DNA from: Eutreptiella sp. 'Long Island Sound 2002'
Taxonomy: Eukaryota; Euglenozoa; Euglenophyceae; Eutreptiales; Eutreptiaceae
Length of the DNA: 64,000 nucleotides
Assembly: GCA_964036045.1 (NCBI GenBank)
Contig: OZ038387.1
Location: 58,994,427 to 59,058,426 of the forward strand
Direction: 5' to 3'
The notes beneath the pieces are model-generated. The model saw only the letters and a list, made by a program, of their open reading frames with translations. It was not told the origin of the DNA and searched no databases. This document shows positions 14,207-52,547 of the stretch, piece by piece (positions within the stretch are counted from its first letter, which is position 1; each line of letters begins with the position of its first letter). Made by a program: the position numbers and the translations under genes.

Positions 14207-15268
14207 CTGCTCTGGACCTTGCACTTCCACGATCTGTTCCACAATGTGCTCCACAGTGTGCTCCATGGGTACGGGCACCTTCACTTCGTACGGGACGTCA
14301 ATTACCACCTCCCTCTCTTTGATCACCTCCTTGGGGACTTTGACAACCGTTTCCACCGGATAGGGAACGTCCACCCGAATAGGTACTTTAACAGGTACTT
14401 GAACAGGTACTTCAACCTCAACGGGCACGCGTGTCTCAACTGCCCGCGTAGGTTTGTGACCAACAACACGCGAAGATCCATGACGAACAGCGCCGCCTTC
14501 TACAATGGGTGCACCAAAATACTTCCCGTCGATGACTCCGTCTGCAGCGTCCAAAGCCCGAGCCGTGCTGGAGCGCAGGCGACTGCCTGCGTAAGTGCCA
14601 CCGGCAAGACGGCGACCATAGACGCTTCCCACTTTGGAACGAGCCTCATCGGCAGAAAGCAGCCCCCTGCTGCGATATGCACCGCTTTCGACAATAGGGC
14701 GACCGAAATACTTTCCGTCGATGACTCCGTCCGCGGCATCCAAAGCCCTGGCAGCGGAACTTGTACGGGCAGAACGCAGTCCACTGCTGCGATATGCACC
14801 GCTTTCGACAATAGGGCGACCGTAATACTTTCCGTCGATGACTCCGTCCGCGGCATCCAAAGCCCTGGCAGCGGAACTTGTACGGGCAGAACGCAGTCCA
14901 CTGCTGCGATATGCACCGCTTTCGACAATAGGGCGACCGTAATACTTTCCGTCGATGACTCCGTCCGCGGCATCCAAAGCCCTGGCAGCGGAACTTGTAC
15001 CGGCAGAACGCAGCCCCCTGCTGCCATGTGCACTGCTTTCGACAATAGGGCGACCGTAATACTTTCCGTCGATGACTCCGTCCGCGGCATCCAAAGCCCT
15101 GGCAGCGGAACTTGTACCGGCAGAACGCAACCGGCTGCTGCGATACGCACTGCTTTCGACAATAGGGCGACCGAAATACTTCCCGTCGATTACCCCATCT
15201 GCAGCGTCCAGAGCCCTGGCAGCCGAACTTTGAGGCTTTCCGCCCACGACTCGACTTGAGATTGGCAT
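14207..15268 (-). CDS. Alveolin, first coding exon with 39-residue DAADG repeats
   Basis: The exon starts at ATG 15268 (MPISSRVVGGKPQ) and encodes six units containing RALDAADGVIDGK followed by Y-F/Y-GRPIVE; four consecutive units are almost exactly 39 residues (117 bp) apart. After the last unit the sequence turns into alveolin-type Val/Pro/Glu repeats (PVEVEVPVQVPVKVPI, then VEHIVEQIVEV). The open frame ends at 14189, but a donor CAG|GTGGCA at 14207 keeps phase with the second exon; the joined protein would be about 701 residues. The start is favoured by a strong acceptor just upstream and by the absence of protein-like sequence before it. The near-identity of the middle repeats suggests recent unequal exchange. 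The role of the DAADG repeat is unknown; it may be a lineage-specific extension of the cortical filament protein. Confidence 0.75.
14515..15232 (-). repeat. 117-bp coding tandem repeat (six units)
   Basis: The DNA unit encodes 39 residues from one YxGRPIVE to the next. The two most similar units (around 14770-15000) differ by very few bases, while the outer units, especially the one nearest 14530, are diverged and spaced differently. The repeat lies entirely within the alveolin coding sequence. Confidence 0.9.
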
Positions 15269-26019: not shown

Positions 26020-29000
26020 TCATGCTTCCTCTTTGGTACAAGGCATGCAACGAGATACATATACAATCCACTTTTGACTGACTGTAACATCATGAGGACT
26101 ATAGCTCAGAAACCGCTGCATCGCTTTTTGGCAAGTCCGTACTGCTGTACTTCTGTCATGGCCACATAGAACGCTGATTTGTAACCATGCTGTCACAGAC
26201 ATGAGGTATTCACTCCAACCGGACAGGAAAGGACGGCAGTTCATTAAAACACCTGTGAATAGATTGCTGAGACTAGTCTCGGTCACAGCCCATGGGGATT
26301 GCAATGGGGCACCTTGTTTTAAATGCCATGACGCTGTCAGAGCGGACGGATGCACGTACACCGTGCCCCAGCCACAGCGCCGTTCCATAGCTATACCTAA
26401 AGCATATAGATCCCCGTCCATACATGTCAACTGACAATCAGGCACATTTTCACTGATGCAAGGACACAGTACTCGCAACGACCAAGCTTGCTGCAGTAAC
26501 CTGCAAACATCAGGCATTGCCCAACAAGCACCTAGGCCTTTAGAAGCCACTATGATGTTATCACGAAACTGCGCCAATGCGACGACGCGTCCTCTATTGT
26601 TGACCCAAATTGGATGACCGGAGTCGGTGGTACGCAAATCACCCAACGCATGAAATCTTTGTTTGTTCACATGAAAACTCCACAGGCTGTGCAAATCAGC
26701 TGCCTGGGCACTGAAAGGCCCGCCCATAGGCAGCGCAAAAGAACGGGACCAGCAGGAACCGGCACCCTGGCAGAAACTGTTGTCCTGCAGGCAAAACCTG
26801 ACCAGCTCTGTGAGTTGAGCGTGTGACAATATATCAAAGTTGAATGCACTAGCTTTACCACAACGGTCCAGGCACTTGTCATATTTATGTACAAACCAAA
26901 ATATCTGCGTGGCTCTCCACCTGCGCTGGCCCCGAAGCCACTGAGTGGCAGCATCAAAATGTTGCAAAACATCAGCTGGCAAAATACGATTAAACTGGTC
27001 CTTACAGTGTGCCTCCCCTATCACAGTACAGTTCCAACTATTGAGATCAGTCATCCACTGAGCTACACCTTGGATGGACAAATGCAAGAAGGAACATGGT
27101 ATTTCTTGGGACAGAGTTTTCAAAAAACATGTGAAAGCCCTGGCAGCAATTCGGAGCTTCCAGCGGGGTATCACAGGTGCAGACTGAGCACAGATTGGAC
27201 GCCATGTGATCCTGGGTAACTTCAAAGATTTACCCTTTCCAATGAGGTACAACAATGCTAACCGGGCCCTATCATTACATACCCAGCCATTGCCACGCAC
27301 AAGGTCTGCCAGTCCAGACAGTACTTCACCCGGTGATTGCTCTGTACTCTGGTATTTCTCTGCCGTCAGAAACTCAGAAGTCTCATCCCAAATCCACTGG
27401 CGACAGAACCCCCACATGGTCCCTGGTGATTTGTCTACGATGCGAACCACAGCAACTTCGCTCAAACGCGCGGCAGTCGTCTGCACGTGAGAAAGCATGG
27501 CACCTGAATGACTGAAGAGGCTCTTGGGCAGCAGCCTGCCTAAATTAGGCAACGCGACATTTAATAGGCGGGCGAGGTCAGTGAGGTCTTCTGCGGTTCT
27601 ATCTCTGCAAGAAGGGCCTGCTAAAGGCAGTGGGTCTTTACTGCGCAACTCTGCTCCGTCAAAGTGGACTGAGACGGGTAATAAACAAAAATGGCCGTCT
27701 CGGACGGTCACTGTGCCTCCTTGTTCCCATACATGTAAAAACTCAGAGGTACAACGGCATGGCGGTCGTTCCCATTCCTTTTCGCAACTATTAGCCTCAG
27801 ACTCAAAACATCGCCGTACCGTGTGGGGGACCGTGCGCACAACCTGGATGCGTCCACGTAGGGCTTGTGGTTCCCACAAGGTGCAGGGCACATGCCTCAG
27901 CAGGGCATTGATCACCCGTGAAACGGCTAGTTTTTGCTGACCCGTCATATATGGTACACGCACAATTGCTGGTATCAACAAAGGTAATTGCAGCTCTGCA
28001 CCTATTGAAGCTATTTCCTTTTTCAAAGCGGCAATACGTGGATAGTCATTAGCCAACCTTGCAGCTGTCAGGCCTCTAATGGTCTGCACTGCTCTCTTAG
28101 GCATCAGTTTGGAGGGTTTTGCACTGTCAGTTGGAATTCCAGGAGGCACATCGTTCAAACACCATTTTCTAAACTTGTCCCACCAATAGCGTTCAGCAAT
28201 AGCAGCCTCCCAGTCGGACGAGACCATTTCCAAAGGTACAATCATCCAATCAGCAAGGTCTGTACTACGCAACATGTCGTGAAATCTACTATCCTCTGCA
28301 TGTGCCAAAGCTGTCGTTATGTGTTTACGTAATCGTTTGATCAATGCTTGAGTCGTGCGACCAACATATACACACAGCATATGACAGTGCAGTACAACAT
28401 ATATATACTCAAAGGGGGGAGGAACACAGAGTTGCCATTCATGCACACGTGACACGCGCCTGGCCATACAAAGTGTTTTGTGACTACGGTAATGAATGTA
28501 TCGTAGTCGCTCTTGCATGCAAGCCGCCCATCCAGCTAGGTCTTTGTTTTTCAGATTCTGGCGAATGAAGTGTGTGGTCAGGCGCGTGCACTCGGCATGT
28601 GCTGGTGGTAGGAGTTCAGTAAAGATCGGGTCCACCACGGCGCGTTTATGGCATTTGAAAAAACATACAAGCCGTTCACGTGTAGTATGTGTCAATTGAG
28701 CTACAGTGGTCTTAGAGGTGTGCAACTGCCACACAGTACCCTGGAATTCCGCCTGTAGCACAAGCATCATATTGGGATGTGTACACAAGACTGCATGTGC
28801 CTCTTCCGGGCGGCACCATACCCAATGGAACCGGGCACAATTTTCAATGTATGCAACATCTTCAGCCACATCGCACCAGAAGCTCACAGTGGATGACACC
28901 TGATCACTCACGTTATTAAACTCAGAAAGCACAGGATGTATGCTAATATTGCAAGTGTCGAGCAAGCAATTGGTGGAACGCCAAAGTATATGTGCATCCA

Positions 29001-29815
29001 AACAGCACCTCACTGTTCGCACTGCATAACATGGGGGTCGGGGAACACAATCGACAGGAGAGTCTTTGCATGCGAGCCACAGTGGGGACTGCTGTTTGGC
29101 ACCATACAGTAGTGTATCTTGCAGCTCGTGTATTCGGTGTAACAGATCCTTGTCATGCAATGCTGAGTGTAGTATGAGGTATGCATGTGCCCCTGTCTGG
29201 TGTATGTGGTATGTCTCTTGCATGTGTGTTGGTGTGCTGTGTGGTAGTGTATATGGCTGGTAGTATCGAGCAAACAATGGACTTGCGGTCCGTGTCTTTT
29301 CAACGATGCATGCAGCGAACGACAGGTCCCGGCGTAAAGTCTGTAATTCCCTGGAGAGTGCTGAGACAGCATCAATCACTGCTGTCTCGCTCCATTGGAA
29401 AAAATCAGCGGGCTGACACGAGCACCCTTCAATACGGATTTCAGTCCACTGTCCCAGACCCGTGTCGTTTCGGCATTGACGAGGCCTTCCATTGTCTGCA
29501 CCATTTCGGACGAAGAATGAATTCGTAACCACTGAAGTAGACGGTCGTGATACATCGGTTGCCAATCTCCCATAAGCGCATCCAATAAATTCTCTGTCCA
29601 TGCGGCGTCGCCAACTCCCTGCGGAGGAATCTGTAGCCATGGTTCACTGCTTTCGCTCCGTTCCTTCTCACCCCCCGCTGAGATGAGTGTTTCTCAAAAT
29701 AGCGTGTGACCGCGGGTGTGCGCACAATGAAGCTCCGCAAGCCAATGTTCTGTTCATCCATGCGGCGGGTCGTGCGAGCCAAAACGTTAAGGATCCAAAG
29801 GGCATTAAACTTCAT
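26020..29815 (-). CDS. Penelope-like GIY-YIG / reverse transcriptase-like protein, frameshifted near its N-terminus
   Basis: The main frame runs from ATG 29640 to TGA 26020 (1206 residues). Residues 411-485 form a GIY-YIG nuclease: YIY at 412-414, YVG at 425-427, then RT...RLRKH, with the metal-binding Glu at 483 in AERYWW. The nuclease precedes the polymerase, the order known for Naiad/Chlamys-type PLEs. The reverse transcriptase-like half shows DKSPGTMWGFC (about 736), a motif-B block PMGGPFSAQAADLHSLW, and a motif-C block QFRDN (Asp1027) where YxDD is expected. Upstream of 29640 the protein appears to continue: one frame from ATG 29815 (MKFNALWILNVLARTTRR) and a second frame between about 29680 and 29400 look coding, linked to the main frame only by shifts at a G6 run (about 29680) and a T6 run (about 29400). 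The copy is probably decayed, or the assembly has indels. No terminal repeats were found. Confidence 0.75.
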
Positions 29816-35462: not shown

Positions 35463-36050
35463 CTATTGGGGATTGAACCGGCGCTTGACCCGCTTTTTCG
35501 TTGGTTGCGGTGACATTCGTGGTTTCGCAGCACACACCCTGCAGGTCACCTCCACGCGATAAGAAACCTGTACTGTGCATGCGACATGCACCCGGTGCTT
35601 GCATGACTTGCAAGGCCGCATGGCATCCCCTGGTGGGGAGTTGCACACACGACACACACACCGGAAGCATTTGGCCCCTTGTGTGCACAATGCATGCACC
35701 TGCTGGCCACAGCCGGGGCACGAAACAATGTCGCCGAGGAGCTTCTCCCCACAGCAGCCACATGCCGCCAACTCGGATGCCGGGGTAAAGAATGTCAACA
35801 CGCCACCTTGGCGTTGTCCGGAATTTGGTCCCATGTCGTTGGAGGTAGCGGGAGGTGACGGTACATCCGCATCAGGTGAGGTAGAACGGAACTGCCAGCC
35901 ATTGCGCGTCTTGGCGTTCTTGGCTGCACGGGAGACTTGGGTGGCGAACCACTCAATACCTTGCTCCTTTAGGTGAGCGGTGGCGTCCGCAACGGACGGA
36001 AAGTAGGCCCATGCCCCGCCTGCTTCGGGGCGTAGCCACACGGGAGGCAT
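35463..36050 (-). CDS. Small protein with two Cys/His zinc modules
   Basis: 195 residues from ATG 36050 to TAG 35463. Residues about 17-57 (FPSVADATAHLKEQGI...GWQFRS) resemble short helix-turn DNA-binding repeats that start with FPS and end with GW, though this match is weak. Residues about 95-130 hold CGCCGEK...CPGCGQQVHALC...CFRC, and residues 130-172 hold CRVCNS...CKSCKHRVHVAC...CRVC; both fit PHD/RING-like cross-brace zinc modules. The C-terminus is basic (KKRVKRR). The gene lies about 110 bp upstream of, and on the same strand as, the hAT-like fragment, so it may be the accessory or N-terminal part of the same transposon. Its start follows an in-frame stop region and looks credible. Confidence 0.5.
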   Translation of the reverse strand: MPPVWLRPEAGGAWAYFPSVADATAHLKEQGIEWFATQVSRAAKNAKTRNGWQFRSTSPDADVPSPPATSNDMGPNSGQRQGGVLTFFTPASELAACGCCGEKLLGDIVSCPGCGQQVHALCTQGAKCFRCVCRVCNSPPGDAMRPCKSCKHRVHVACTVQVSYRVEVTCRVCAAKPRMSPQPTKKRVKRRFNPQ

Positions 36051-40400: not shown

Positions 40401-40897
40401 CGTGCCCATGTGTCGACTTGAAACGCACTCCGGACACCAAATCCCGGCTGCGTTGGGTGAGTCTAATGATGCTGGTGCTTGATGTAATATGTTGCTCTTG
40501 GCTTCGGAGGTATCCTACAAGAAGGTCCCAAAGGGTGAGCCACACCTGCCGGTAGTGCAATAGCAGGGCGACGCGTGTCAAGGGACTCAGCAAGCTGAGG
40601 GGAACCCCAAGACCCCAACGACAAATTAGTTTAATTTCTTATCCAGCAGTGCTGGATATATATATACCAGACACCGCGTACTTGAGCGTAATTCAGCATC
40701 TCCATGTTTACCGTTGGAAGGTGGTCTGAATTACCGCCGTTTACCATCCATCTCGTTTTGCAAAGCCGTCATGCTGCATGAATGCCCGAGAACTGCTGCA
40801 GAATCATGAGTCCATCGCCAATGAGCAGGGGCGTGCGAATCTGCGCGTGACGCAGCCACAGCGCCCGTTGCGCCGCCGCTGGGGATTGGATGGTATT
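37414..40897. other. Gene-poor stretch
   Basis: 38300-38620 is a C-rich, GTGCGCC-punctuated low-complexity tract that reads as a Cys/Pro-rich peptide on the plus strand. The rest shows only short frames. It ends at the host sequence into which the large retroelement is inserted. Confidence 0.5.
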
Positions 40898-43800
40898 GCG
40901 GCCCCTGTCGCAATTCTACGCCCCCGCCCCCCTCCCAATTCGGCGGCCCCTGTCGCAATTCTGCCCCCCCCCCCCGGTCCAGCCGGGAGAAGGGGGCCAG
41001 CAAGGGGCCCTACGCACCTCCACCCAACACGGGACACCACCGTCAACCCAACAACAACTCGCTCCTATGTTGAGGTGGTCCGGGGAGTCGCGCAACGAAG
41101 TGGGCGGCCAGCGACGGTAAGAGGCCCACCCCACGTCACCCGCTACATCCTACTCCCCCGTGCACCCACGCATCCCCCACAACCCCCGTCCGCGCAGCAA
41201 AGGCATGAAGGAGAGGGTAGGGGGTTTGTGTTGCGCTCGCCAAAGGATGGACTGAGCGCGGGAACTTGGAGGAGAAAGGTTGTTATGTGCCCCCGTCGGG
41301 GAAACGACCCCGCAAGTGGCCATCCCAGGGCCCACCAGCCGCCGTTGGGGAGAGGTACCTCACCGCCGGCTTGGGATGGCCGCTTGGACGCACCTGGCCA
41401 ACGGCGAAGGCATTTGCCTTCCTCTGCGTGGACTCGACGCAGAGAAGTGAAACAGGGCAAGTCCGGGGGCTCCGTTGGCACAACCGACCAAGGGAAAGGG
41501 AAGGGAAGGAGTGTGGTGAGGCCGATGGGCACGGTGGCCTACAGAGGGAAAGGCCAAGGGAAGGGAAAGGGGAGGGGAGAGGGAAGGTTAGGGCAAGGAG
41601 GAAGAGGAAGGTCAAAGGGTGGTGAGAAGCTGATGGGCACCACCGCCTATGGAGGGAAAGGGTCCAAAGGAAGGGCAGCGAATGGCGATCGGCCAGTAGG
41701 CGCCGCCAGCTGCAGACGAGATCATCACACCATGGCGTCATGCCAAAACCCCCACATACCACGCCTGACGTGGAGTGCCCCCACACGGGGGCTGTATGGC
41801 GCGAAAGGCGCTCTACGTGCAGAAGAAGAGGCACGACAACAACCCCGTTGGTCACAAAGCCATGGAGCGGAAGCGTCGGAGCAGTGGAGAGAAGTGAGGT
41901 GTGGAAAAGGACAGGACACGAGATGGAGCAAGGGTGGAAAGGGAACATGGCTGCCAGAAGCAGGATTGAAGGTGACCAACTATTGGGGTGCTCTATATAG
42001 GAGGACGGCCCAAAAAGGAAAAGGCAAGGGAACCCTCGGAAGGCGAGGAACGGTTGACCCAGGTTGGGTGAATGATGAGGAGGGCGGAGGAGTTCGCTTG
42101 CAGAGCCAAACACCGGAATTGGGAAGGAGAAAAGGGATAGGGAAGGGGAAGGGAGGAAAAGGCAAAGGGAAGGGGAGACAACACGTGGAACACACAGAAG
42201 CAAGGAGTGGAAGAGGAATCCGTCTGAGGATCCAGCATCAGCATCACCGAGGAATGGAACGCACCGAGGAAAGGAGAAGTAGGGGAATGGAAAGGAGGAT
42301 GCACTATCCATGGTACAAAGAGAAGGTACCACTACAACGAACAACAGTGGAAGGAGAGGTGAGATGGACATGGCAGCAGCATTTTGAGGATTGCCGCAGA
42401 GTTTGGCAAGAAGGTCCCAAAACACAAAAGTTGCGTCGATTGTGGCAACTAATAAAGGAAGAACAATGGAAATGGAGGACAAGTGGACAAGAACATCGGA
42501 TCCCAAGATGGGAAGAGGAAGGAGTGGCGGAAGCATACATGATGTACCACAAGCCGACAGGCAAAGCGTACGCGGGAGTAGCGTACAATGGACACCAAGC
42601 ACGGTTAAAGAAGAGATGGAGCAACCGTTGGGGGGATGAAGACTTGGTAAGTAGGGTGATGAGAACAAGTGAATCAATGGCGGATTGGATAGTATGGCCC
42701 GTGGAGAGGTTTCCCGGACAACGAAGAGGGCACATGGCGTTTTGGAGGAGGTCAAGCATGAGGGAGGGGTTTTGGGCCACACACTTGGAATGTTGGTGGC
42801 CAAAAGGGTTCAATGAGGGAACGACAGGAGGGGAGTACAGGGAAGGGGCCAGAAGGGATTGGGCACACAGAAGGTACACATTCCAGAGGGCGCACAGGGA
42901 AGGTTTGGAAGAAAGGTGGGGGGAGACGAGGAAAAGCCTCAAGAGAACGTTGGAAAAGATTCACAACAAGGAGACCACAGTGGCGGAGGTGGTCAAAAAG
43001 ATGTTGGTGCAGGAAGCAAAGAAGTTCTTGCAAGTGATATATGGAGATGGAGTCACCGGACAAGACGTACAACAACTCGAGAGAGCATTGAGGACCAAGA
43101 TAAACACCCAAAAGGAGGAAAAGAGAAAGCCCATGGGTGACTACATCAAGCTCTTGATCACGCACAAGGCTTGGGGTAAAGTGAGAATCAGGGATGTCCT
43201 CAGAGACCCTGAAGTAGTCCATAGGCACCCGGAGCCTGAGGTCGCAGAAACCATGTGGGTGTGTGAGAAGAATGTCCCGCCAATTTCCACGTGGTTGTTG
43301 AACTACACGGACATCGACAAGGAAGAAGGATTGACAGAGGAGGAAAAAAGGGTCTTTGTGAAATGGGATGAGCAATTTGGGCATCTCAAGAAAGAAGAAC
43401 AACCATGGGTGACATCGTGCAACTGTTTCAAGCATGTGCCGTATCCAAGGAAGGAGGAAGTATGGAGGGGCCATGTGGTCGTGACAGAGATGGCGGGCTT
43501 CAATAGTCCAATAATGGAAGACGTGGAGAAAAAAGGATACAAATTCAAGCAGCAAGAGCCAGAATGGAAGGTGCTCCACAACTTGGAAGAGGGGTTAACG
43601 GAGTACATCGAGTACAAAGTACGAAGTGGAGCAGGGCAAAGAGAGGACTACGAAGGGTGGAAAGACTTGATCAAAAAAAAAGTGATGTGGCAAGTGGACA
43701 AGGAGGTTCACACGTTGCCACAAGGGACGGAAGGGATGCAAAAAGTGAAGGACATGAAGAAAGATTTTGCATTCTTGAAGGAGGATAGGGGTCCGCACAA

Positions 43801-44731
43801 CTGGGTTGGCGTATGTAAGCGACTATACAAGCACCGGAGGGACATATACCTCCAAAGTGATGGGTTTGAGGTCGCGCCGGAAAGTGAGGAGGCCATCCTA
43901 CAACGCCACGAAGACTACCACGCGGAGAGGCTCCTCGCAGTCAACAGAAGGTTGCCGTACATATATGGAATATGGAAGGCCCAGAAAGAAAACATACGAT
44001 GGATTAGTGGAGCAAGGAAACAAACCGAAGAAGAGAAAGACAAGCCGGAAGCAAGCATAGCAGGAGTCGGAGAGGTCTTGGTGCAAGCATTAACGCAAGT
44101 ATGCAGAAGCTTGAAACGCAAGGATGTGGAATGGAGGAAGAAAGGGAACCCGAAGAGGGTGTGGTGGATAGATAGTGTAGAGGAGTTCATGCAGCCGGTC
44201 CGATTTGAGGAGGAATTGATAGCGCAATGTAAAGCTTCGGCGGAAGTGGGAGATTTCGTGGCGATGTACCCAAGCATGGATCAAGACTACGTCTCCACAA
44301 ACGTGTTGGAGGCAATCGAGGAGGCTTGGGACTGGGAAGAACAAACTGCAAAGGAGGACAAGGATGGGGAAGAGGAGGAAGAGCTACGGGTCGGAAAAGA
44401 CGGTTGGTGGCTTGGACGAAAGGGGGAGGAACCCCAAGCTGACAGCTGGAGCAAGAGAGAAGTGAAGGAGATGGTGCAGTGGGTACTAAACAACGGATAT
44501 GTCAAGCAAGGGGGTGTGGTGTACAAGCAAAAGAAAGGTTTCAGAATGGGACTGAAATGTGCCGTCTTCTTGGCGAACCTGGCGTGTTATGGGACGGAGA
44601 AGAGGTTCGCGGAAGAAGAAGGAAGGAGGCCGGAGCAAGTGGAACACAACTATCGCTTTGTGGATGACATGTTTTCCTTGACCGGCGTCGTCCCTGGGGA
44701 GGAAGCATACAAACTCAAAAGGACGGTCTGA
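40778..44731 (+). CDS. Retroelement polyprotein, part 1: GIY-YIG nuclease and reverse transcriptase
   Basis: 1317 codons; the first 68 (40778-40980) are host sequence fused in frame, so the natural N-terminus is the one kept at 49388. Residues about 250-490 are basic, with GKGKG-type repeats. GIY-YIG: Tyr587...Tyr590, HKPTGKAYAG, RLKKRW, and the metal-ligand Glu671 in HLECWW. Reverse transcriptase: an RT1-like block with KEDRGPHNWVGVCKRLY; RT2 with LPYIYGIWKAQKENIRWISG; motif A DFVAMYPSM with Asp1159; motif B KKGFRMGLKC (1252-1261); motif C YRFVDDMF with Asp1296 and Asp1297. All three catalytic aspartates are present. The N-terminal nuclease order is that of Naiad/Chlamys-type PLEs. The frame is cut by TGA 44729-44731, 32 codons after motif C, before the thumb; the downstream sequence continues in the same frame. 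Confidence 0.85.
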   Translation: MNARELLQNHESIANEQGRANLRVTQPQRPLRRRWGLDGIAAPVAILRPRPPPNSAAPVAILPPPPGPAGRRGPARGPTHLHPTRDTTVNPTTTRSYVEVVRGVAQRSGRPATVRGPPHVTRYILLPRAPTHPPQPPSAQQRHEGEGRGFVLRSPKDGLSAGTWRRKVVMCPRRGNDPASGHPRAHQPPLGRGTSPPAWDGRLDAPGQRRRHLPSSAWTRRREVKQGKSGGSVGTTDQGKGKGRSVVRPMGTVAYRGKGQGKGKGRGEGRLGQGGRGRSKGGEKLMGTTAYGGKGSKGRAANGDRPVGAASCRRDHHTMASCQNPHIPRLTWSAPTRGLYGAKGALRAEEEARQQPRWSQSHGAEASEQWREVRCGKGQDTRWSKGGKGTWLPEAGLKVTNYWGALYRRTAQKGKGKGTLGRRGTVDPGWVNDEEGGGVRLQSQTPELGRRKGIGKGKGGKGKGKGRQHVEHTEARSGRGIRLRIQHQHHRGMERTEERRSRGMERRMHYPWYKEKVPLQRTTVEGEVRWTWQQHFEDCRRVWQEGPKTQKLRRLWQLIKEEQWKWRTSGQEHRIPRWEEEGVAEAYMMYHKPTGKAYAGVAYNGHQARLKKRWSNRWGDEDLVSRVMRTSESMADWIVWPVERFPGQRRGHMAFWRRSSMREGFWATHLECWWPKGFNEGTTGGEYREGARRDWAHRRYTFQRAHREGLEERWGETRKSLKRTLEKIHNKETTVAEVVKKMLVQEAKKFLQVIYGDGVTGQDVQQLERALRTKINTQKEEKRKPMGDYIKLLITHKAWGKVRIRDVLRDPEVVHRHPEPEVAETMWVCEKNVPPISTWLLNYTDIDKEEGLTEEEKRVFVKWDEQFGHLKKEEQPWVTSCNCFKHVPYPRKEEVWRGHVVVTEMAGFNSPIMEDVEKKGYKFKQQEPEWKVLHNLEEGLTEYIEYKVRSGAGQREDYEGWKDLIKKKVMWQVDKEVHTLPQGTEGMQKVKDMKKDFAFLKEDRGPHNWVGVCKRLYKHRRDIYLQSDGFEVAPESEEAILQRHEDYHAERLLAVNRRLPYIYGIWKAQKENIRWISGARKQTEEEKDKPEASIAGVGEVLVQALTQVCRSLKRKDVEWRKKGNPKRVWWIDSVEEFMQPVRFEEELIAQCKASAEVGDFVAMYPSMDQDYVSTNVLEAIEEAWDWEEQTAKEDKDGEEEEELRVGKDGWWLGRKGEEPQADSWSKREVKEMVQWVLNNGYVKQGGVVYKQKKGFRMGLKCAVFLANLACYGTEKRFAEEEGRRPEQVEHNYRFVDDMFSLTGVVPGEEAYKLKRTV
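40898..40975. repeat. Host target repeat upstream of the retroelement
   Basis: Two copies of gcggcccctgtcgcaattct (40898-40917 and 40943-40962), 45 bp apart, end in a C12 run (40964-40975). A third copy with one or two differences occurs at 50405-50422 beyond the element, preceded by a C14 run. The element therefore interrupts a host tandem repeat at its poly-C segment, or has generated a duplication of about 25 bp. Confidence 0.75.
40981..41747 (+). repeat. Left 767-bp terminal direct repeat (pLTR)
   Basis: I saw no difference from 49615-50381 in the parts I compared. It begins at agccgggagaag directly after host ggtcc and covers the Gly/Lys/Arg-rich N-terminal coding region. It diverges from the right copy at the sequence after tgccaaa, where the left copy continues into the body of the element and the right copy meets host poly-C. 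Confidence 0.9.
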
Positions 44732-47700
44732 AGAGCCGCTGATGGGGGCCACCTTGTCTTCTTGGGGGCTGACTTGTGGTGGAGAGAGGATGAGAAAGGG
44801 CGCATCAAGTTTGAAACCGGAGTGCATTGGAGAGAGAAGGACTATCCCATAAAAATAAGGCGATATCCAGTGAGGGATAGCATGATCTTGGACGCCCAAA
44901 GGTTGGGAGTATTGACAGGGCAATACATCAGAGCATTGAGGTTGTGCTCAGTTTTGCGATTATTCAAGGAGGCGATCCAAACCATCACCAAAACAGCCAC
45001 ACAGCGAGGCTATGGGACACACGAGCAAAAGAAACAATGGGGCAAGTTCTTGCGAGTGTGGTGGGGTGGACAAGACATCACCATGGGGGAGATGCACGTG
45101 TGGTTTGGACGGATGCAACGGTGGGTAAGGAAGGAGATCTCAAAAGAAGAGAGGAGAAAGAAGAGATGTTGGTACGGGTGGAGGTGTCGGAGAAAGAGCT
45201 GCCCGTTTGAGCACGTACCACCGCCACCGAAAGTGTGGACACCGCCGGAAGGCGGGCTGGAACCCCAAAGGAGGGAAGCCAAAAATCCGCACCCACAAGG
45301 GGTGAGAACAAGTGAGATCGTCGGAGAGGAAGAGGAGATGAAGAACTGTGGTGTGTGGCGGGAGACGGTGGTGGTTGTGGACTTGAGGGAACCACCGTTG
45401 GTGGCACCAACGCAAAGCGACAACCGCAAAGTTGGGTGCGCCGAGACCACGGAGGCTGCAAGCACCAACAAAAGCCTGACAAATGATGTTGAGAGACAAC
45501 AAAAGGAAGAACAAGCGAAGCAGCAGGAGAGGGAGAGCCAAGACGACAAAGGAACAAAAGAAGTGGAAGACAGTGACACCGACAGTGACGTATCAATCTT
45601 GACATGGCTGCAAGGCTTGAAGACAAGGGGCGAAGGAGGGCAAATGGAGGGACACAAAGACTTGCGGCCGGAGGTGGTGGACGATGAGGCGACCGTGGAG
45701 CAACAAAGGCAAGAGAGGAAGAGCCACACCGAAGACCATGGAGGGCCTCGTCCATCACCACAAGTGGGGCTAGAGGTGGGGGAGAAGGAGGAGAAGGAAG
45801 AAGACCACAAGCAAAAGGAGAAGAGCGAAATCCAAAGCCACAAGGAACAATATCCACCGCAGCGGCAAGAGGATGAGCAGCAAGGTGAAGAAAGCGGAGG
45901 ACATGGAGAAGATAGTGACACCAACAGTGACATATCAATCTTGAGATGGTTGCAAGGGCTGAGGAAAGAGGAAGCGGGAGGCCAAAGCCAGGAGAACCCA
46001 GAGCTAGACGTGGTGGAAGAAGAAGAGACAAAGAAACAACCAAGGCAGGAGGAGAGAAGAAATGCCCCTGGCCAGGGAGAGCCAGAACCATCTCGAGAAG
46101 TGGCAGTGGATGGGGTGGAGAAGGGGGTGTTGGACGAACAACCAGGTCCAAAAGCGACAAAGAACAAGGACCGCAGCAAGGTACAACACCCAACAGGAGT
46201 GGGAAACCACGGGTTGAAGGAAGCCGAAGAGAGGGGGCCGACAGAAGAGAAGGTGACCTCGGAGGAGGCGAAATCAAGACGAACAAAGCCACAACCAAGA
46301 AAGGGTGAATGGCAAGTGGAGCTCCCCAAGGACATATTGGAGACATGGAACCAAGCAGTCCGGGAAGCGGCAAGCCAAGGGAAAGAGACCATGGGATTGT
46401 TGTGGGGGACAAGGACCGAAAATGGGGTCAAAGTAGGGGGTCTACACATACCAAGACACGACGTACAAACAAGCCACCACTGTGCAGTGGGAGATGAGGC
46501 GCTCACAGAGGCCGTCAGTTGGGGCGCATCCTTGGGAGGAAAATTGGTTGGTTGGATACACACGCATCCAGGACATGTGCCGGTGCTATCAGCCTTGGAC
46601 GTGTGCACCCTCAACACAATTGGCCAAATGCTATGGTCAATTATACCGGAAGGAGGCCCAGCAGTTGGAGTGGTGCAAAGTTGGACCTCTCCAGCGGATG
46701 AAGTGGCGTGTGCCCCACTGAAGGGGGGTCTAAAGGCCTACACAATGTCCGTCTTGGGCATGGAGGTGGCAAACAGATGTGCTGCAATCCGCCGAAAGAA
46801 ACCGGGAGTGGATCACCGGTATCACGAACATCTTGCTGGAGTTTGGGATGATGATGACCCTCACCCGGTTGGGAGGGAGCAGGAGGAAGTGCCGGTGGTC
46901 CTCGTGGAGGCCGAGGATGGTGGTTGTATGGACATGGGAAACAACAGGTGGTGGACCAAATGGTTGGGAGCAGGAAGCACACCTAAGGAAAAGGAGAACA
47001 CCAAGCCCGACAACAATGAGGAGAGTGATAGCAGCACGAGCAGCAACGGGACAGCGAGCACGGTCGGACCAGAAGCTTGGTCGCAAAAGCGTGGTCCCAA
47101 GCACGCATGTGGGCTATGCTGCAGACCGTTGAGGGCCAAGGAGGGAGCAGTGAGGTGCAGCCAGGGGCACTGGATGCACTTGAAGTGTGCTGGGGTCACT
47201 GTCTCCCAGGCGAAGAAGGTGTTCCGCAGCAACAGGGTGTTCCAGTGTAGGTGCAGAAAGGCAAGGCCAGCCAAATGGTTGCGGGAGGAAAGAGAGAGGC
47301 ACAAGCAGAGGAGGAGAGAACAACGCAGCAAAGCGAGGAAGGCAGGGGTGGCGCCGGAGGAACAACCCCCCAAGCCACAAGCACGGGCCGAACCACAGCA
47401 AAGTGACTCCGAGAGACCGGAGGTGGTTGGAGTGGATGGCCATCGCATTGTTCTCGGGGGAAGAGTAGCACTAACAGGCATGAAGAAAAAGATGGAATTG
47501 GAGGGGAAGACAGGTGAGGTTGAAAGCATCATCGAGGATCAAGGAAAAGTAAGACTCCGAATGGACTGTGGCAGAAGGGTTTTGGTGTCATTGGATAGGG
47601 TCAGGGTGCAAGAGGTGGAGCACATGGGAGGCGCCGAGGACTCAAAAGCTGCCCAACCACAACAGCACGGGGAAGAAACAAAAGGACGCGGGGTGGCGGG

Positions 47701-48778
47701 AGACAATGAACCGCACGGAAGAAAGGAGGAAAGGAGTGAAGAAGGAGAGATGGGATGGCAGGAAGAAACATTTGAACTATGGAATGGGGTGAGGCTAGTA
47801 GGGATGAGACAACCGGAGTTGGAGGGCCACAAGGGGGTGTTGGAGGAGATCTACAAGGACAAAGTGCAAGTGTTGTTAGTGGGAGGGATGCGCCGAGTAA
47901 AAGTGGACAAGAAGAAGGTGGTCCCGGAGGTAGTTGAGCCCGTTGAGGTGCTGCCCCCGGGTTTTGAAGGATGGAGCTTTCTTGAACAGATTGGAGTGGG
48001 TAGTGCACCCACCATGGATGAAGTGAAGGCCGCATACAAAAAGTGGGTGTTGCGGTTACATCCGGACAAGAACATGAACAACATTGCCAAAGCCACCCAC
48101 CTGTTCAAAAGGTTGACATCCGGCTACGAGGGATGGAAAAGTGCGCCCGGGGTGACACCGCCAAGGCCGGCGGAGGAACCACCCAACTACCAGTTCAACC
48201 CCACATACTTTCGATCCAATTTCTGCAACAGCACAAGTTCGGCGGGGCAAACAGCCCCGGAGGAAGCGCCACCAAGTGCCAAAAACCCAGGAACGGAGGG
48301 CGATGGAGAGGGTTTTTGGTCTTTCTTGTGGGGAAGCAAAAGGCCCGGTCGTTCCGAACATGCGAGTGGAATGGGGGCTAGCCACGGTGAGGGTACACCG
48401 AAGGGCGCACCGCCACCGGGGTCGGGAACGCAACGGACCCGGCGCCTCTTGTTCCATGAGAAGTTCCGGTGGCACACGCACCACGTCCGCGCCATCCAAG
48501 CGGACCGGATCCTCGCTGAGAAAAGGAGGAGAGGGTGGTTCTCCGACTACCCCGAGGCAGGAAGCAACATGTACTTATTGGCACCAGACCAGGTGTACAA
48601 AGTGCGAGTGCTAGCCTCAACGGTATGGGTGCCGGAGGTGAGACGTTGGGAGCCGGAGGTGTTCATCATCGGGGAGGGCATCAACTTCACAGTGGAGGAC
48701 ACAACCAGGTTGATGCAAAACTTGCACAGGGCAAACGTGATTGCCGAGCAAGTAGGCATCCGGCTGTACAAGGAGTAG
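44732..48778 (+). CDS. Retroelement polyprotein, part 2: RT end, CCCH, JAMM, PHD-like, J-domain
   Basis: Continues the frame of part 1 directly after the TGA (GHLVFLGADLWW is the RT primer-grip-like block) and ends at TAG 48778. Residues below count from codon 44762. CCCH zinc finger C-x5-C-x4-C-x3-H at 136-151. Acidic low-complexity region at about 200-500 with two copies of a DSDT-x-SD-x-SIL-x-WLQGL unit. JAMM protease-like domain at about 515-670: Glu542 (ETMGLLWG) and H-T-H-x7-S-x2-D at 600-613, the full metal-binding set known from MPN+ deubiquitinases. PHD/RING-like Cys/His module at 783-833. Two repeats of about 60 residues with G-x-x-V-x-L-x-GM...G-x-x-G-x-V pattern (about 895-955 and 1000-1055). 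J-domain at about 1065-1130 with HPD at 1100-1102. The C-terminal 170 residues are unassigned. Protease activity is inferred from residues only. Confidence 0.8.
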   Translation, partial: RAADGGHLVFLGADLWWREDEKGRIKFETGVHWREKDYPIKIRRYPVRDSMILDAQRLGVLTGQYIRALRLCSVLRLFKEAIQTITKTATQRGYGTHEQKKQWGKFLRVWWGGQDITMGEMHVWFGRMQRWVRKEISKEERRKKRCWYGWRCRRKSCPFEHVPPPPKVWTPPEGGLEPQRREAKNPHPQGVRTSEIVGEEEEMKNCGVWRETVVVVDLREPPLVAPTQSDNRKVGCAETTEAASTNKSLTNDVERQQKEEQAKQQERESQDDKGTKEVEDSDTDSDVSILTWLQGLKTRGEGGQMEGHKDLRPEVVDDEATVEQQRQERKSHTEDHGGPRPSPQVGLEVGEKEEKEEDHKQKEKSEIQSHKEQYPPQRQEDEQQGEESGGHGEDSDTNSDISILRWLQGLRKEEAGGQSQENPELDVVEEEETKKQPRQEERRNAPGQGEPEPSREVAVDGVEKGVLDEQPGPKATKNKDRSKVQHPTGVGNHGLKEAEERGPTEEKVTSEEAKSRRTKPQPRKGEWQVELPKDILETWNQAVREAASQGKETMGLLWGTRTENGVKVGGLHIPRHDVQTSHHCAVGDEALTEAVSWGASLGGKLVGWIHTHPGHVPVLSALDVCTLNTIGQMLWSIIPEGGPAVGVVQSWTSPADEVACAPLKGGLKAYTMSVLGMEVANRCAAIRRKKPGVDHRYHEHLAGVWDDDDPHPVGREQEEVPVVLVEAEDGGCMDMGNNRWWTKWLGAGSTPKEKENTKPDNNEESDSSTSSNGTASTVGPEAWSQKRGPKHACGLCCRPLRAKEGAVRCSQGHWMHLKCAGVTVSQAKKVFRSNRVFQCRCRKARPAKWLREERERHKQRRREQRSKARKAGVAPEEQPPKPQARAEPQQSDSERPEVVGVDGHRIVLGGRVALTGMKKKMELEGKTGEVESIIEDQGKVRLRMDCGRRVLVSLDRVRVQEVEHMGGAEDSKAAQPQQHGEETKGRGVAGDNEPHGRKEERSEEGEMGWQEETFELWNGVRLVGMRQPELEGHKGVLEEIYKDKVQVLLVGGMRRVKVDKKKVVPEVVEPVEVLPPGFEGWSFLEQIGVGSAPTMDEVKAAYKKWVLRLHPDKNMNNIAKATHLFKRLTSGYEGWKSAPGVTPPRPAEEPPNYQFNPTYFRSNFCNSTSSAGQTAPEEAPPSAKNPGTEGDGEGFWSFLWGSKRPGRSEHASGMGASHGEGTPKGAPPPGSGTQRTRRLLFHEKFRWHTHHVRAIQADRILAEKRRRGWFSDYPEAGSNMYLLAPDQVYKVRVLASTVWVPEVRRWEPEVFIIGEGINFTVEDTTRLMQNLHRANVIAEQVGIRLYKE

Positions 48779-49387
48779 AAGATGGAAGCCAAGTGAGAAG
48801 CGGACAAGCCCCACCCACGGGTGACAAGAGGGCGTGGAAGCGCACGGTCGCACAGTTCCGACGGCGTCAAGGTGACGGGGTGCAGCTTGTTCAGCGCAGT
48901 GCCGAGCACAAAGGCGCGACCCGGAACGCACCATGGCATGGCCTAGGCCTTGAAGCAAGAGGGACTGAGACCGGGCGCCAAGCGACCCAGGAACCCAAGG
49001 GACGGGCAACCCGGCGCCCGGTGAAGAAAGAAGAACAATGAAAGCAAAAAGCCTGATGGAAAGAAGAGTCTCACACCATCAACATGGCTCTGCTGGGGAG
49101 GAGAGGATCCTCCAACCACCGAGACTCACACTGGGGAGCCGCGGCCCCCAGTGATACAGCAACAAGGCACAACGATGTGGTCTGAGGTACGGCCGTGGAC
49201 GGGCCTCTGGACCCATGCCCAATGGAGACGGCGCCGCAGTCTCCATTGGATGCGCCCCGGCCACCACAACGCGCAGCGAGCTTTCTCGCCGGCGGAGTAG
49301 GGGGCAAGGCCAAACAACAGGCAGGGGGAAGGCAACCCCCGCACTTTTTTAGCCAGGGTGGTGACCAACACCGACCAAAACAAAACA
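48779..49387 (+). other. Untranslated junction of the retroelement unit
   Basis: Lies between the TAG of the polyprotein and the ATG of the second, truncated copy. It must hold the 3' end of one unit, the 5' end of the next, and probably the internal promoter. I could not identify a hammerhead ribozyme core, which is known in some PLE terminal repeats. Confidence 0.6.
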
Positions 49388-50381
49388 ATGAACTCTACAC
49401 GTGCACCGAGTTCTTCTCGGGGGGTCCAATGGGGCCTCAGCGAGATGCCCGATGTGGCAACGCAAGCCAACCGGGGGCCGCGCTCTCAAGGGAGTGACCA
49501 CGGCAGTAAGTCCCAGCGTGCTGGCACTGAGAAGCGAGCAGGGGAGAGACTCCCTCCCTCGCATAGCAACTCAACCAGAAAAAGGACGCACCACGTCGTC
49601 AAGCGCCCGGACCAAGCCGGGAGAAGGGGGCCAGCAAGGGGCCCTACGCACCTCCACCCAACACGGGACACCACCGTCAACCCAACAACAACTCGCTCCT
49701 ATGTTGAGGTGGTCCGGGGAGTCGCGCAACGAAGTGGGCGGCCAGCGACGGTAAGAGGCCCACCCCACGTCACCCGCTACATCCTACTCCCCCGTGCACC
49801 CACGCATCCCCCACAACCCCCGTCCGCGCAGCAAAGGCATGAAGGAGAGGGTAGGGGGTTTGTGTTGCGCTCGCCAAAGGATGGACTGAGCGCGGGAACT
49901 TGGAGGAGAAAGGTTGTTATGTGCCCCCGTCGGGGAAACGACCCCGCAAGTGGCCATCCCAGGGCCCACCAGCCGCCGTTGGGGAGAGGTACCTCACCGC
50001 CGGCTTGGGATGGCCGCTTGGACGCACCTGGCCAACGGCGAAGGCATTTGCCTTCCTCTGCGTGGACTCGACGCAGAGAAGTGAAACAGGGCAAGTCCGG
50101 GGGCTCCGTTGGCACAACCGACCAAGGGAAAGGGAAGGGAAGGAGTGTGGTGAGGCCGATGGGCACGGTGGCCTACAGAGGGAAAGGCCAAGGGAAGGGA
50201 AAGGGGAGGGGAGAGGGAAGGTTAGGGCAAGGAGGAAGAGGAAGGTCAAAGGGTGGTGAGAAGCTGATGGGCACCACCGCCTATGGAGGGAAAGGGTCCA
50301 AAGGAAGGGCAGCGAATGGCGATCGGCCAGTAGGCGCCGCCAGCTGCAGACGAGATCATCACACCATGGCGTCATGCCAAA
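49388..50381 (+). CDS. Truncated second copy: natural N-terminus of the polyprotein
   Basis: ATG 49388 (MNSTRAPSSSRGVQWG) opens a frame that enters the 767-bp repeat at 49615 and matches part 1 of the first copy residue for residue to 50381, where the element stops at poly-C. The 76 codons before 49615 are missing from the first copy, so they are likely the real beginning of the protein. A GTG 30 bases upstream extends the same frame, but there is no reason to prefer it. The frame runs on by chance into host DNA to 50647. Confidence 0.75.
49615..50381 (+). repeat. Right 767-bp terminal direct repeat (pLTR)
   Basis: Copy of 40981-41747 at constant offset 8634. It is followed by a C14 run and the host repeat gcggcccctgtcgcaat (50405). 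Confidence 0.9.
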
Positions 50382-50422
50382 CCCCCCCCCCCCCCGGCAA
50401 TTCTGCGGCCCCTGTCGCAATC

Positions 50423-52190
50423 CTTCGTATATATATGGCGCATATCGTCGATGAGAAATATGGACTTCAACACCAATACCAGGGAGCGTTAGCTTCTTTT
50501 TGCGGGGGGGACGTCTCCTTTTGTTGTTGCGTCAGCAAGGTCAGCAAGGTGCACTGCAGCGTCAACAAGGGCCAACTGGCTTCAGAAGGGTGCGGGACCG
50601 TTGGTTGCAACGAAGGGTACCCTGAGCCCGCTTCCGAATTGATCTGATACTCCAGAGAAATGCCCCCACCGTACCCTTCACCCCTAAAAAAAACTTGTTG
50701 AGGCGCGATCACGAAGTGGCAGTGCACCCTTCCCGCCTCGCAGGGAGCAACGAGAAAGATGGTCACGATCATACCCGTCCCGTGACCTTTTCGTGGGCGT
50801 ATTCCCAATTGTCACTTTCACTGCCTCTACAATAGCACTGGCGGGCCATTGCGAGGCATCGTTGGTGCTGACGAGCTGTAAACACGGTGTGAACATCACT
50901 TACCTCCTGCCCTTGACACGATGCTCCCTCTTGCAGATGCATGCTGTACAGGCATGGGCTGCCCTGGCCGAGCGACAAAATTACAACACGGAACTTCCCG
51001 CCTCCTCCCACCGCCCCGACCGCCTGGACCCCGCAACGCCCACCCGCCCGCCTGGCCACACCCGCCCTGGACCTCGCGCCGCCCCATCCACCCTGTCCGC
51101 TCCCAGGACCCCGAAACGCCCTGCCGCCCGCCCACCCCGCCAAGCCACCCGCGCGCTAGATCGGTCCTGACCCCTCACCGCACAACCACTGCCCCTGTAT
51201 GAGCACCGTGAGTGCGCAGTTTACTTACGCCGCTACTACGCCGAAAGTGTTTTTTATCAATCTGCCACAGGGGTGGATCTTGTCATTTTGCAAAGGGGAA
51301 GCATGGCGTGTCAGAAACTTCCAAAAGAAAAAATGGCCCCAGCCCCAACCACCTTGAGGGCTGGAGAGAAAATGTGGTCTTTGGTTGACACGATTCTTGG
51401 CCCAGCATGTGCCAGCTACAGTCCTCTTTGTAGGTTGAGAGTGGGGGTGTGACCTAGGAGGAGCGGGACGGGGAGAAATGAGGGGGAAGGGGAAAGAGAT
51501 CCCATCCTTGGCACTATTTCAATTGGTTTTCGCGTTCTGTTGTATGCTTGGAGGTGTCCACCACGGCTTCCAGTGAAGAAGCCTTCCCAAGCCATGTCCG
51601 GCACACCTCCATTGCGCCCATTTTGCTTCTCAGGTTCGTTGTAAGGTCTTTCTGCCGGAGCATTCGCTCCCCGCCGACATGACACGTCTGCGTCTTTCCC
51701 GGCTTGCCTTCTAGGAAGATCCTGCAGCAACGCATGTGCCCAGGAAAAGACCGACGCAAGCAAAAAGATTCGTTTCAAAACTTCCAAAAGACGGAAAGCC
51801 CTGCGTCAACAACGTGAAATTGCCACCAGCATAGTTGCCAGTATCAAGACGAATGAGGAGGAAAAAAAGCTCCCAGCCAGAGGCGTCAGCAGTACGCTGC
51901 GCAAACGTTGCACAGCTCGTGTGTGGTGCCCAATCTGATATGCAAATGGGTTCAGGTTGCAGCTTCCCATTTGTCATGGCTGTCCAGGTTGTTGCGGTGC
52001 CCCTGCGGTCCTCCTTTTTCTTTTGCGGTACCAGGTTCTGGACGCCCTTCTGGAGCAGCTGCTCGCCAGAAGGGAGGGCAGTCCCAGTTTCATCACCACA
52101 TGTCCTTACAGTCTTGACCTCGACCAACTTCCAATTCGGCACGTGAGAGTTGGCATGATGACACCTAATCCGTGCAGTACAATGAAACTA
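50423..52190. other. No gene seen
   Basis: Short frames only. 50990-51170 is C-rich and reads as Pro/Arg/Ala low-complexity sequence in several frames. Confidence 0.5.
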
Positions 52191-52262
52191 TACCACCTGT
52201 AGGGTTCGAACCTACGACCTACTCCGTGTAAAGGAGACGATCTACCACTGATCTAAGATGGC
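52191..52262 (-). tRNA. tRNA-Val (anticodon UAC), copy 1
   Basis: 72 nt including the discriminator A; no encoded CCA. Cloverleaf: seven-pair acceptor stem (GCCATCT with AGGTGGT, two G-U pairs), four-pair D stem GATC/GATC with loop AGTGGTA, anticodon arm TCTCC-TTTACAC-GGAGT (outermost pair T-T mismatched), variable loop AGGTC, and T arm GTAGG-TTCGAAC-CCTAC. The anticodon is TAC, reading Val codons. The internal B box GGTTCGAACCC is perfect; the A box is close to consensus. No intron. Confidence 0.9.
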
Positions 52263-52475
52263 AACTGTGATAGTTAGCGTTTGTCTGCACCTCGTCAACG
52301 TGGATTGTTGATGGTTCCAACCATTTGTTGGTGTACTCGATCGTTGCATGGTTCACCATTTAATTGGCTTGCGGTTCCAAAACTTTTTCATTCCAACCTT
52401 GCTTGCACTTTGTCGCGTTGCCGCGCACGTCCATCGGAACAAGGGGTTTTGCAACATCACAAGCTCAAGAAAAAT

Positions 52476-52547
52476 TACCACCTGTAGGGTTCGAACCTAC
52501 GACCTACTCCGTGTAAAGGAGACGATCTACCACTGATCTAAGATGGC
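52476..52547 (-). tRNA. tRNA-Val (anticodon UAC), copy 2
   Basis: Identical over all 72 nt to the copy at 52191-52262, 285 bp away in the same orientation. The immediate flanks differ, so only the gene itself, or a unit that has since diverged outside it, is shared. Confidence 0.9.

Follow-up and report, generated by a model that had tools for sequence, protein, structure and literature searches.

A probable Penelope-like retroelement of Euglena in which a predicted deubiquitinase and a J-domain follow the reverse transcriptase

Tandem, 5'-truncated copies with pseudo-long terminal repeats (pseudo-LTRs) are among the traits of Penelope-like retroelements (PLEs). Members of the N-terminal-endonuclease type have a GIY-YIG nuclease before the reverse transcriptase (RT), a CxC linker, pseudo-LTRs, tandem or inverted copies, an insertion bias toward microsatellites, and no hammerhead ribozyme. 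Naiad and Chlamys, which were reportedly described by Craig et al. in 2021, are of this type; the Chlamys nuclease has no CCHH motif. Among other retroelement classes, the Dualen long interspersed elements carry an OTU-like protease. According to an excerpt of PMC12477816, the Chlamys PLEs of Ectocarpus were the first PLEs to be reported in TSAR. We analysed a 64,000-nucleotide stretch of contig OZ038387.1 (positions 58,994,427 to 59,058,426 of the forward strand), hereafter the window, in which an 8634-bp unit (41754-50387, +) can most likely be assigned to the Penelope-like retroelements, and within them to the N-terminal-endonuclease type. From the sequence, we read it with good confidence as a multi-copy, recently spread element in Euglena, in whose single frame the RT is followed by a predicted deubiquitinase and a J-domain.

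The mobile elements that encode deubiquitinases in the excerpts of two sources (PMC2836005, PMC9741609) are DNA transposons and viruses. An excerpt of PMC9741609 describes deubiquitinases of VTD or OTU type in Helitrons, and an OTU domain instead of VTD in alloherpesviruses. According to an excerpt of PMC2836005, Ginger1 transposases have a C-terminal OTU or Ulp1 domain, never both, and sometimes a PHD finger. Burro Gypsy elements possess ubiquitination-linked RING/MATH-type motifs, the role of which is given as unknown in an excerpt of PMC6431247. No retroelement with a JAMM or J-domain was found in the open-licence literature searched, a scope outside which most subscription papers fall.

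Reading frame and predicted domains

Translation of 40778-48778 (+) gave a frame that is open except for one TGA at 44729-44731, which divides it into 40778-44731 and 44732-48778 (part 2). The TGA is private to the window copy, as none of 24 other copies (0/24) has a stop there. The probable coding region is 42254-48778 (+), counted from the unit's first in-frame ATG as the presumed start codon. Behind the RT lies an AMSH-like JAMM/MPN+ protease domain (46265-46867, +) with the E, HxH, S, and D metal site of JAMM/MPN+ deubiquitinases (E 46385, H 46559, H 46565, S 46589, D 46598). This domain alone matched Pfam Prok-JAB (1.2e-7) and JAB (2.9e-7), both above gathering; when it was scored within all of part 2, the values were 1.8e-6 and 5.2e-6, respectively. 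The nearest solved structure by sequence was the AMSH-like sst2 (4.5e-6). All of the catalytic residues (Glu, HxH, Ser, Asp) lined up in this match: ETMGLLWG was paired with ETCGILCG, and GWIHTHP...SALD with GWIHTHP...SSVD. The J-domain (47960-48172, +; HPD at 48059-48067) matched DnaJ at 4.6e-9, above gathering, and its nearest solved structure was DnaJB8 (1.6e-5).

The RT (43895-45136, +) has its three catalytic Asp codons at 44252, 44663, and 44666, and these are kept in 23/23, 24/24, and 24/24 covering copies (the motif assignment is our own). Upstream, a GIY-YIG-like endonuclease (42500-42877, +) was recognized by the motif YMMY...YAG...E643 and aligned with L033, a locus of a second family (family B) in the same genome. 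A CxC motif (CNC), followed by WRGH, is located at 43418-43426 (+) in 19/19 covering copies; CxC also occurs in 5/5 of the relatives P0002-P0009 that reach that far and in L033 and L034, the two loci of family B. A preliminary description of this DNA, which had proposed a Penelope-like element with JAMM and J-domains in the frame of its RT, is supported. The single frame with one TGA, the complete JAMM residue set (its residue numbers fit an open reading frame starting at 44762), the HPD-bearing J-domain, the three RT aspartates, and the CCCH finger were all borne out, with RVT_1 itself below the cut-off.

Between and beyond these domains are several smaller modules. The CCCH zinc finger (45167-45214, +; C-x5-C-x4-C-x3-H) was present in 24/24 other copies and matched zf-CCCH_tandem at 0.014, below the cut-off. 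It is followed by an acidic linker of laxer sequence (45263-46264, +) with two diverged repeats inside (45566-45802 and 45908-46138, +), which are 67.5% identical and each have SD[VI]SIL, then WLQGL. The SD[VI]SIL motifs look like SUMO-interacting motifs and could bind SUMO. A PHD-like Cys/His finger is located at 47096-47269 (+), small beta module 1 (DUF4314/KOW-like) at 47420-47632 (+), small beta module 2, which has a counterpart in L033, at 47759-47953 (+), and a C-terminal domain at 48440-48775 (+). Three features named in the preliminary description stood in part. The GIY-YIG motif residues are kept in all 16-17 copies covering them, but the stretch has no Pfam match; seven Cys/His positions of the PHD-like finger are kept in 23-24 of 24 copies, but its PHD score (0.022) was below the cut-off. 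As for the two small beta repeats, the first matched DUF4314 below the cut-off (0.0019) and the second had no Pfam match. Neither half of the frame matched a DDE transposase or Rep-helicase in Pfam at E 1, and viral and prokaryote contig scans gave no match.

Copies, insertion sites, and host

When part 2 was searched against the element's own genome (2.28 Gb assembly), there were 12144 first-look candidates, of which 35 were scored, the window being one. All 34 other scored places matched part-2 residues 1-1348 at 98-99% identity, and 26/34 were stop-free. Eight 7-kb loci came from this search. A stretch of about 9.6 kb was retrieved for 20/35 places, which were partly picked because of their long open frames. 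L029 and L030 were added later and neither was used in the copy comparison (L030 is the same place as L008). The comparison covered 24 of the 34 other places, without the window and the duplicates L001, L003, L005, and L006. The five JAMM residues (E, H, H, S, D) and the HPD are intact in 24/24 compared copies, a pattern that the preliminary description had named as support for its reading. Fifteen copies were full-length. Thirteen of these were unbroken over 42254-48775, one had a stop, and one had a frameshift; 13/15 is not a genome-wide rate, because the copies were partly selected for long frames. Likewise, all fetched copies carry the JAMM/J half because they were retrieved with that half.

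A search matching the RT, with the OTU-type relative P0005 as query, scored 38 of 571 candidates, and 35 belong to the window's family. Open frames of at least 2000 amino acids were found in 28 of these 35 places, with an internal stop in three of the 28; such frames would exceed the length expected of an element ending after the RT. P0001, the representative of a public-data cluster stated to have 169 members, is 96% identical to the window element and has the RT, JAMM, and J-domain in one frame from within the RT onward. In P0001 the CCCH His is lost and the last part (the C-terminal domain) is read in another frame.

These counts bear on the alternative of a single chimera, produced either by insertion of an ordinary PLE next to a JAMM/J gene of the host or by a join in the assembly. 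The TGA does break the window frame, and all eight relatives from other samples are without a JAMM match. However, there are 34 other places with the JAMM/J half, and 13/15 full-length copies, on many contigs, run unbroken from nuclease to C-terminal domain. We rejected the chimera and the assembly join on these grounds and consider such an origin extremely improbable. The element is multi-copy and recently spread, and is no single chimera.

The ends of the complete unit recur across the fetched copies. Its 3' end is constant to a few bases and finishes in a C-run in the copies whose right end falls inside the fetched stretch, and 5' ends are truncated at varying points across copies. A left direct repeat, or pseudo-LTR (40973-41753, +), is 99.6% identical to 49606-50387 (+), which by repeat comparison is the 3' end of the unit and stands beside a poly-C tract. 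In tandem copies, the left repeat represents the 3' end of an upstream copy that has lost its 5' part, and the cut point varies between copies. The left end of 40981 first given for the element had to be revised to near 41754, because 40981 lies in what is left of the truncated tandem copy, its 3' end. A U2 small nuclear RNA gene (40530-40692, -; 57.3 bits) is located some 280 bp from the left repeat.

Insertions favour poly-C. A C-run of at least 6 within 40 nt was present in 12/15 assessable left flanks compared to 2.2% of 20000 background 40-mers drawn at random from the parts of the window that lie outside the element; 8/23 loci were not assessable. Among independent left flanks the share is 11/14, because L017 and L018 share one flank. 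Right flanks had a C-run of at least 6 in 5/15 cases, and 11/15 begin with two or more further C.

Selection was assessed by the pairwise ratio of nonsynonymous to synonymous differences (pN/pS) over 25 copies, with the linkers lk3 and lk4 counted in the total only. Ratios were 0.18 for the N-terminal segment, 0.37 for GIY-YIG, 0.23 for the CxC linker, 0.14 for RT, 0.15 for CCCH, 0.65 for the acidic linker, 0.22 for JAMM, 0.21 for lk2, 0.16 for the PHD-like finger, 0.44 for the beta modules, 0.13 for J, 0.93 for lk5, 0.05 (the lowest) for the C-terminal domain, and 0.27 for all segments. The RT, JAMM, PHD-like, J, and C-terminal segments thus evolve slowly (0.05-0.22), and the acidic linker and lk5 are laxer. 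When distinct variants were compared with neutrality, the p-values were 1.5e-7 for RT, 0.0005 for JAMM, 0.003 for J, 0.002 for the C-terminal domain, 0.044 for GIY-YIG, 0.045 for the PHD-like finger, 0.025 for the acidic linker, and 0.57 for lk5.

The preliminary description had assumed an alveolate host. We used Euglena and dinoflagellate spliced-leader sequences that we take to be correct as queries. The Euglena spliced leader had 3283 exact matches in the assembly and its reversed control had 0; the dinoflagellate spliced leader had 0. These counts indicate Euglena, not an alveolate, as the host. The host species is probably E. gracilis. An alveolate was rejected on this basis, and the IMCp (alveolin-type) match in the window presumably suits euglenid articulins as well. 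That match (4.4e-9) was obtained for the first only of two articulin-like proteins with VPVE-type repeats (11184-12323 and 14189-15268, -), which by eye share similar DAADGV-type repeats. The window also contains two tRNA-Val(TAC) genes (52190-52547, -), identical over 72 bases, and a small protein with a PHD-like finger (35463-36050, -; PHD 4.3e-4, below the cut-off). A published E. gracilis assembly is 2.37 Gb with 58.84% repeats, unclassified repeats making up 32.7% of the genome, and the word Penelope is absent from the excerpt of its text (PMC11252322).

OTU-bearing relatives and a second family

A first search with the RT found nothing; its length range did not include P0001. The RT-region search returned nine proteins, namely P0001 and eight relatives with 43-49% RT identity, which come from other samples and short contigs. 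Pfam OTU was above gathering in 4/8 relatives (P0003, P0005, P0007, and P0009) and below it in 3/8 (P0004, P0006, and P0008); P0002 had no Pfam OTU match. The OTU motifs DGxC and HY[DN] were present in 8/8. A J-domain with HPD was found in 6/8, five above the DnaJ gathering threshold and P0005 below it. PHD-like fingers were found in 3/8, two above gathering: P0003 and P0006 have no J-domain and terminate in the finger, and P0005 has both. None of the eight relatives (0/8) had a JAMM match at E 0.05. A profile of the eight relatives matched J-domains (1.4e-11), viral polymerase chains (2e-8), and OTUD2 (2.6e-6) in the PDB; the viral polymerase chains presumably contain an OTU domain. Since the relatives have OTU where the window element has JAMM, unrelated deubiquitinase folds share one slot, a wider pattern than that first described for the window. 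In an unrooted RT tree, from which P0001 was left out, 10/11 rows were OTU-labelled, two of them representing one family, and the window was on the longest branch. This distribution hints that JAMM is the newcomer in the protease slot.

It is also conceivable that the JAMM and J-domains serve only as scaffolds, binding ubiquitin or Hsp70 without catalysis. The retention of the five JAMM residues and HPD in every compared copy, and of the OTU Cys and His motifs in every relative, argues against such scaffolds, which we consider unlikely.

Family B is represented by L033 and L034. The GIY-YIG-like region and RT of L033 are 39% identical over 770 amino acids to those of the window element, and L034 has the same region from within the nuclease onward in a frame with stops. 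In L034, RT and CCCH are followed by an acidic stretch, by two pieces resembling OTU, and by the beginning of a PHD-like finger. The other strand of L033 overlaps L034 at 97.5% over 1562 bases and continues into the PHD-like finger, after which come the beta modules, the J-domain (DnaJ 4.2e-17), and the C-terminal domain. The connection between RT and J in family B thus depends on the overlap of these two loci. A 200-base piece is inverted between the two loci, and the RT and protease-J parts of L033 run in opposite directions. At both loci (L033:1-1212, +; L034:3220-6399, +), a part resembling the C-terminal half of OTU precedes the DGLCLF half. The pieces are apparently permuted in sequence, and family B possibly has a circularly permuted OTU domain or else two decayed ones. 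Its beta-J stretch is homologous to that of the window (E 1e-10), and the C-terminal part is weakly similar (E 0.003). Because the beta, J, and C-terminal modules are homologous, the flanks of the slot are common to both families and the enzyme is different.

Weight of the evidence, proposed role, and known systems

Several results weigh against reading the unit as a PLE with a functional deubiquitinase slot. The RT has no Pfam match above the cut-off. RVT_1 scored 0.12 in the window element, 0.14 in 1/8 relatives, and 0.022 and 0.0041 at the two second-family loci; the three matches with a position given all span RT motifs B-C. PHROGs and NCBIfam gave no RT match. The identity of the GIY-YIG-like stretch, without a Pfam match, rests on motif residues. 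Structure models were poor and uninformative for both JAMM-J (pLDDT 32.5) and nuclease-RT (56.6), and Foldseek returned 0 matches at E 0.001. The family B OTU matches are weak (Pfam 0.055 and 0.1, below the cut-off; small local alignments, the best at 6e-4). The beta modules are not clearly constrained (pN/pS 0.44, p 0.26). JAMM, PHD, J, and C-terminal segments together differed from the acidic linker and lk5 (Fisher p 0.003), two contrast linkers chosen after the values were known, and JAMM alone gave p 0.045 in this comparison; the CxC linker and lk2 are constrained too. Sampling through the JAMM/J half and long frames raises the intact share and lowers pN, and the copies are not independent. 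The p-values are rough, because the linkers were picked post hoc and the copies share ancestry and were selected by protein similarity. The selection evidence is safer where segments of the same copies are contrasted with each other.

The faint RVT_1 scores and the missing Pfam match of the nuclease would also suit an RT from another class of retroelement, one that has a GIY-YIG-like nuclease of independent origin. A second GIY-YIG open reading frame in the window (26020-29640, -; 1206 amino acids) matched PF01541 at 1.2e-4, just above gathering, and had no protease or J-domain match. Its two-sequence match to the GIY-YIG-like stretch was weak (E 0.036). A profile comparison between it and the window RT found nothing, which likewise fits another class. 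However, the N-terminal nuclease with CxC, pseudo-LTR tandems, 5' truncation, inverted pieces, and a simple-repeat target are PLE traits, and their combination makes another class improbable.

For a PLE of the N-terminal-endonuclease type, we somewhat favour a scheme in which the nuclease would nick a poly-C/poly-G tract, and the RNA, through its 3'-terminal C-run, would pair with the nicked G strand and prime reverse transcription. The J-domain would recruit Hsp70 to fold or remodel a large ribonucleoprotein. JAMM may remove ubiquitin from the element's own protein and so spare the complex from degradation or eviction, a possibility that we hold with reserve; alternatively, it could strip ubiquitin from proteins at the target site. 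A different possibility, about which we are also doubtful, is that the deubiquitinase acts on host silencing or restriction proteins, such as ubiquitinated target chromatin read by the PHD-like finger, and not on the element's own protein. PHD-like fingers in the window element and three relatives, two of them above gathering, would fit such host targets, and transposon-encoded deubiquitinases in the excerpts consulted are a general precedent (PMC9741609, PMC2836005); however, the PHD score of the window is weak. Under either target, since either JAMM or OTU is found in the slot, the clade seems to need deubiquitinating activity and not a specific enzyme. Tentatively, with the case for and against nearly balanced, we suggest that a telomerase-related retroelement clade may depend on a proteostasis cassette. 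This cassette would consist of a deubiquitinase slot (JAMM, OTU, or perhaps permuted OTU) and an Hsp70-recruiting J-domain, with which the ribonucleoprotein would free itself or its target from ubiquitin and use host chaperones for retrotransposition.

Behind a PLE-type RT, a predicted deubiquitinase and a J-domain are conserved in many copies, and the deubiquitinase has been exchanged between unrelated folds. This suggests that ubiquitin generally acts as a barrier to mobile elements, an idea that could be tested on the intact copies of this multi-copy system in a laboratory alga. If the PLE membership is true, it places PLEs in euglenids.

Compared to sst2 and AMSH-LP, the window JAMM has the same catalytic E/HxH/S/D and local sequence, but the match spans only domain residues 18-119 and the window domain is embedded in a retroelement protein. 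Burro and Dualen likewise are retroelements with ubiquitin-related modules in their proteins, and they belong to other RT classes. The filling of a deubiquitinase slot by different enzyme classes is shared with Helitron/Helentron elements; in contrast to those DNA transposons with OTU or VTD, as covered in the excerpt of PMC9741609, the window holds a retroelement with JAMM and a J-domain. Ginger1 has a DDE transposase and no RT, and JAMM and DnaJ are not named for it in the excerpt of PMC2836005, whereas the window element has RT, JAMM, and J. The closest likeness in architecture is to Naiad and Chlamys. As in those PLEs, the nuclease, here a putative one recognized by its motif, precedes the RT and is joined to it by CxC; there are pseudo-LTRs, tandem and inverted copies, and a poly-C insertion bias, and Rfam listed no hammerhead ribozyme in the window at the gathering threshold. 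By eye, the putative nuclease of the element also has no CCHH motif, as in Chlamys. Unlike Naiad and Chlamys, the window element adds a CCCH finger, a deubiquitinase, a PHD-like finger, beta modules, a J-domain, and a C-terminal domain, and its host is Euglena.

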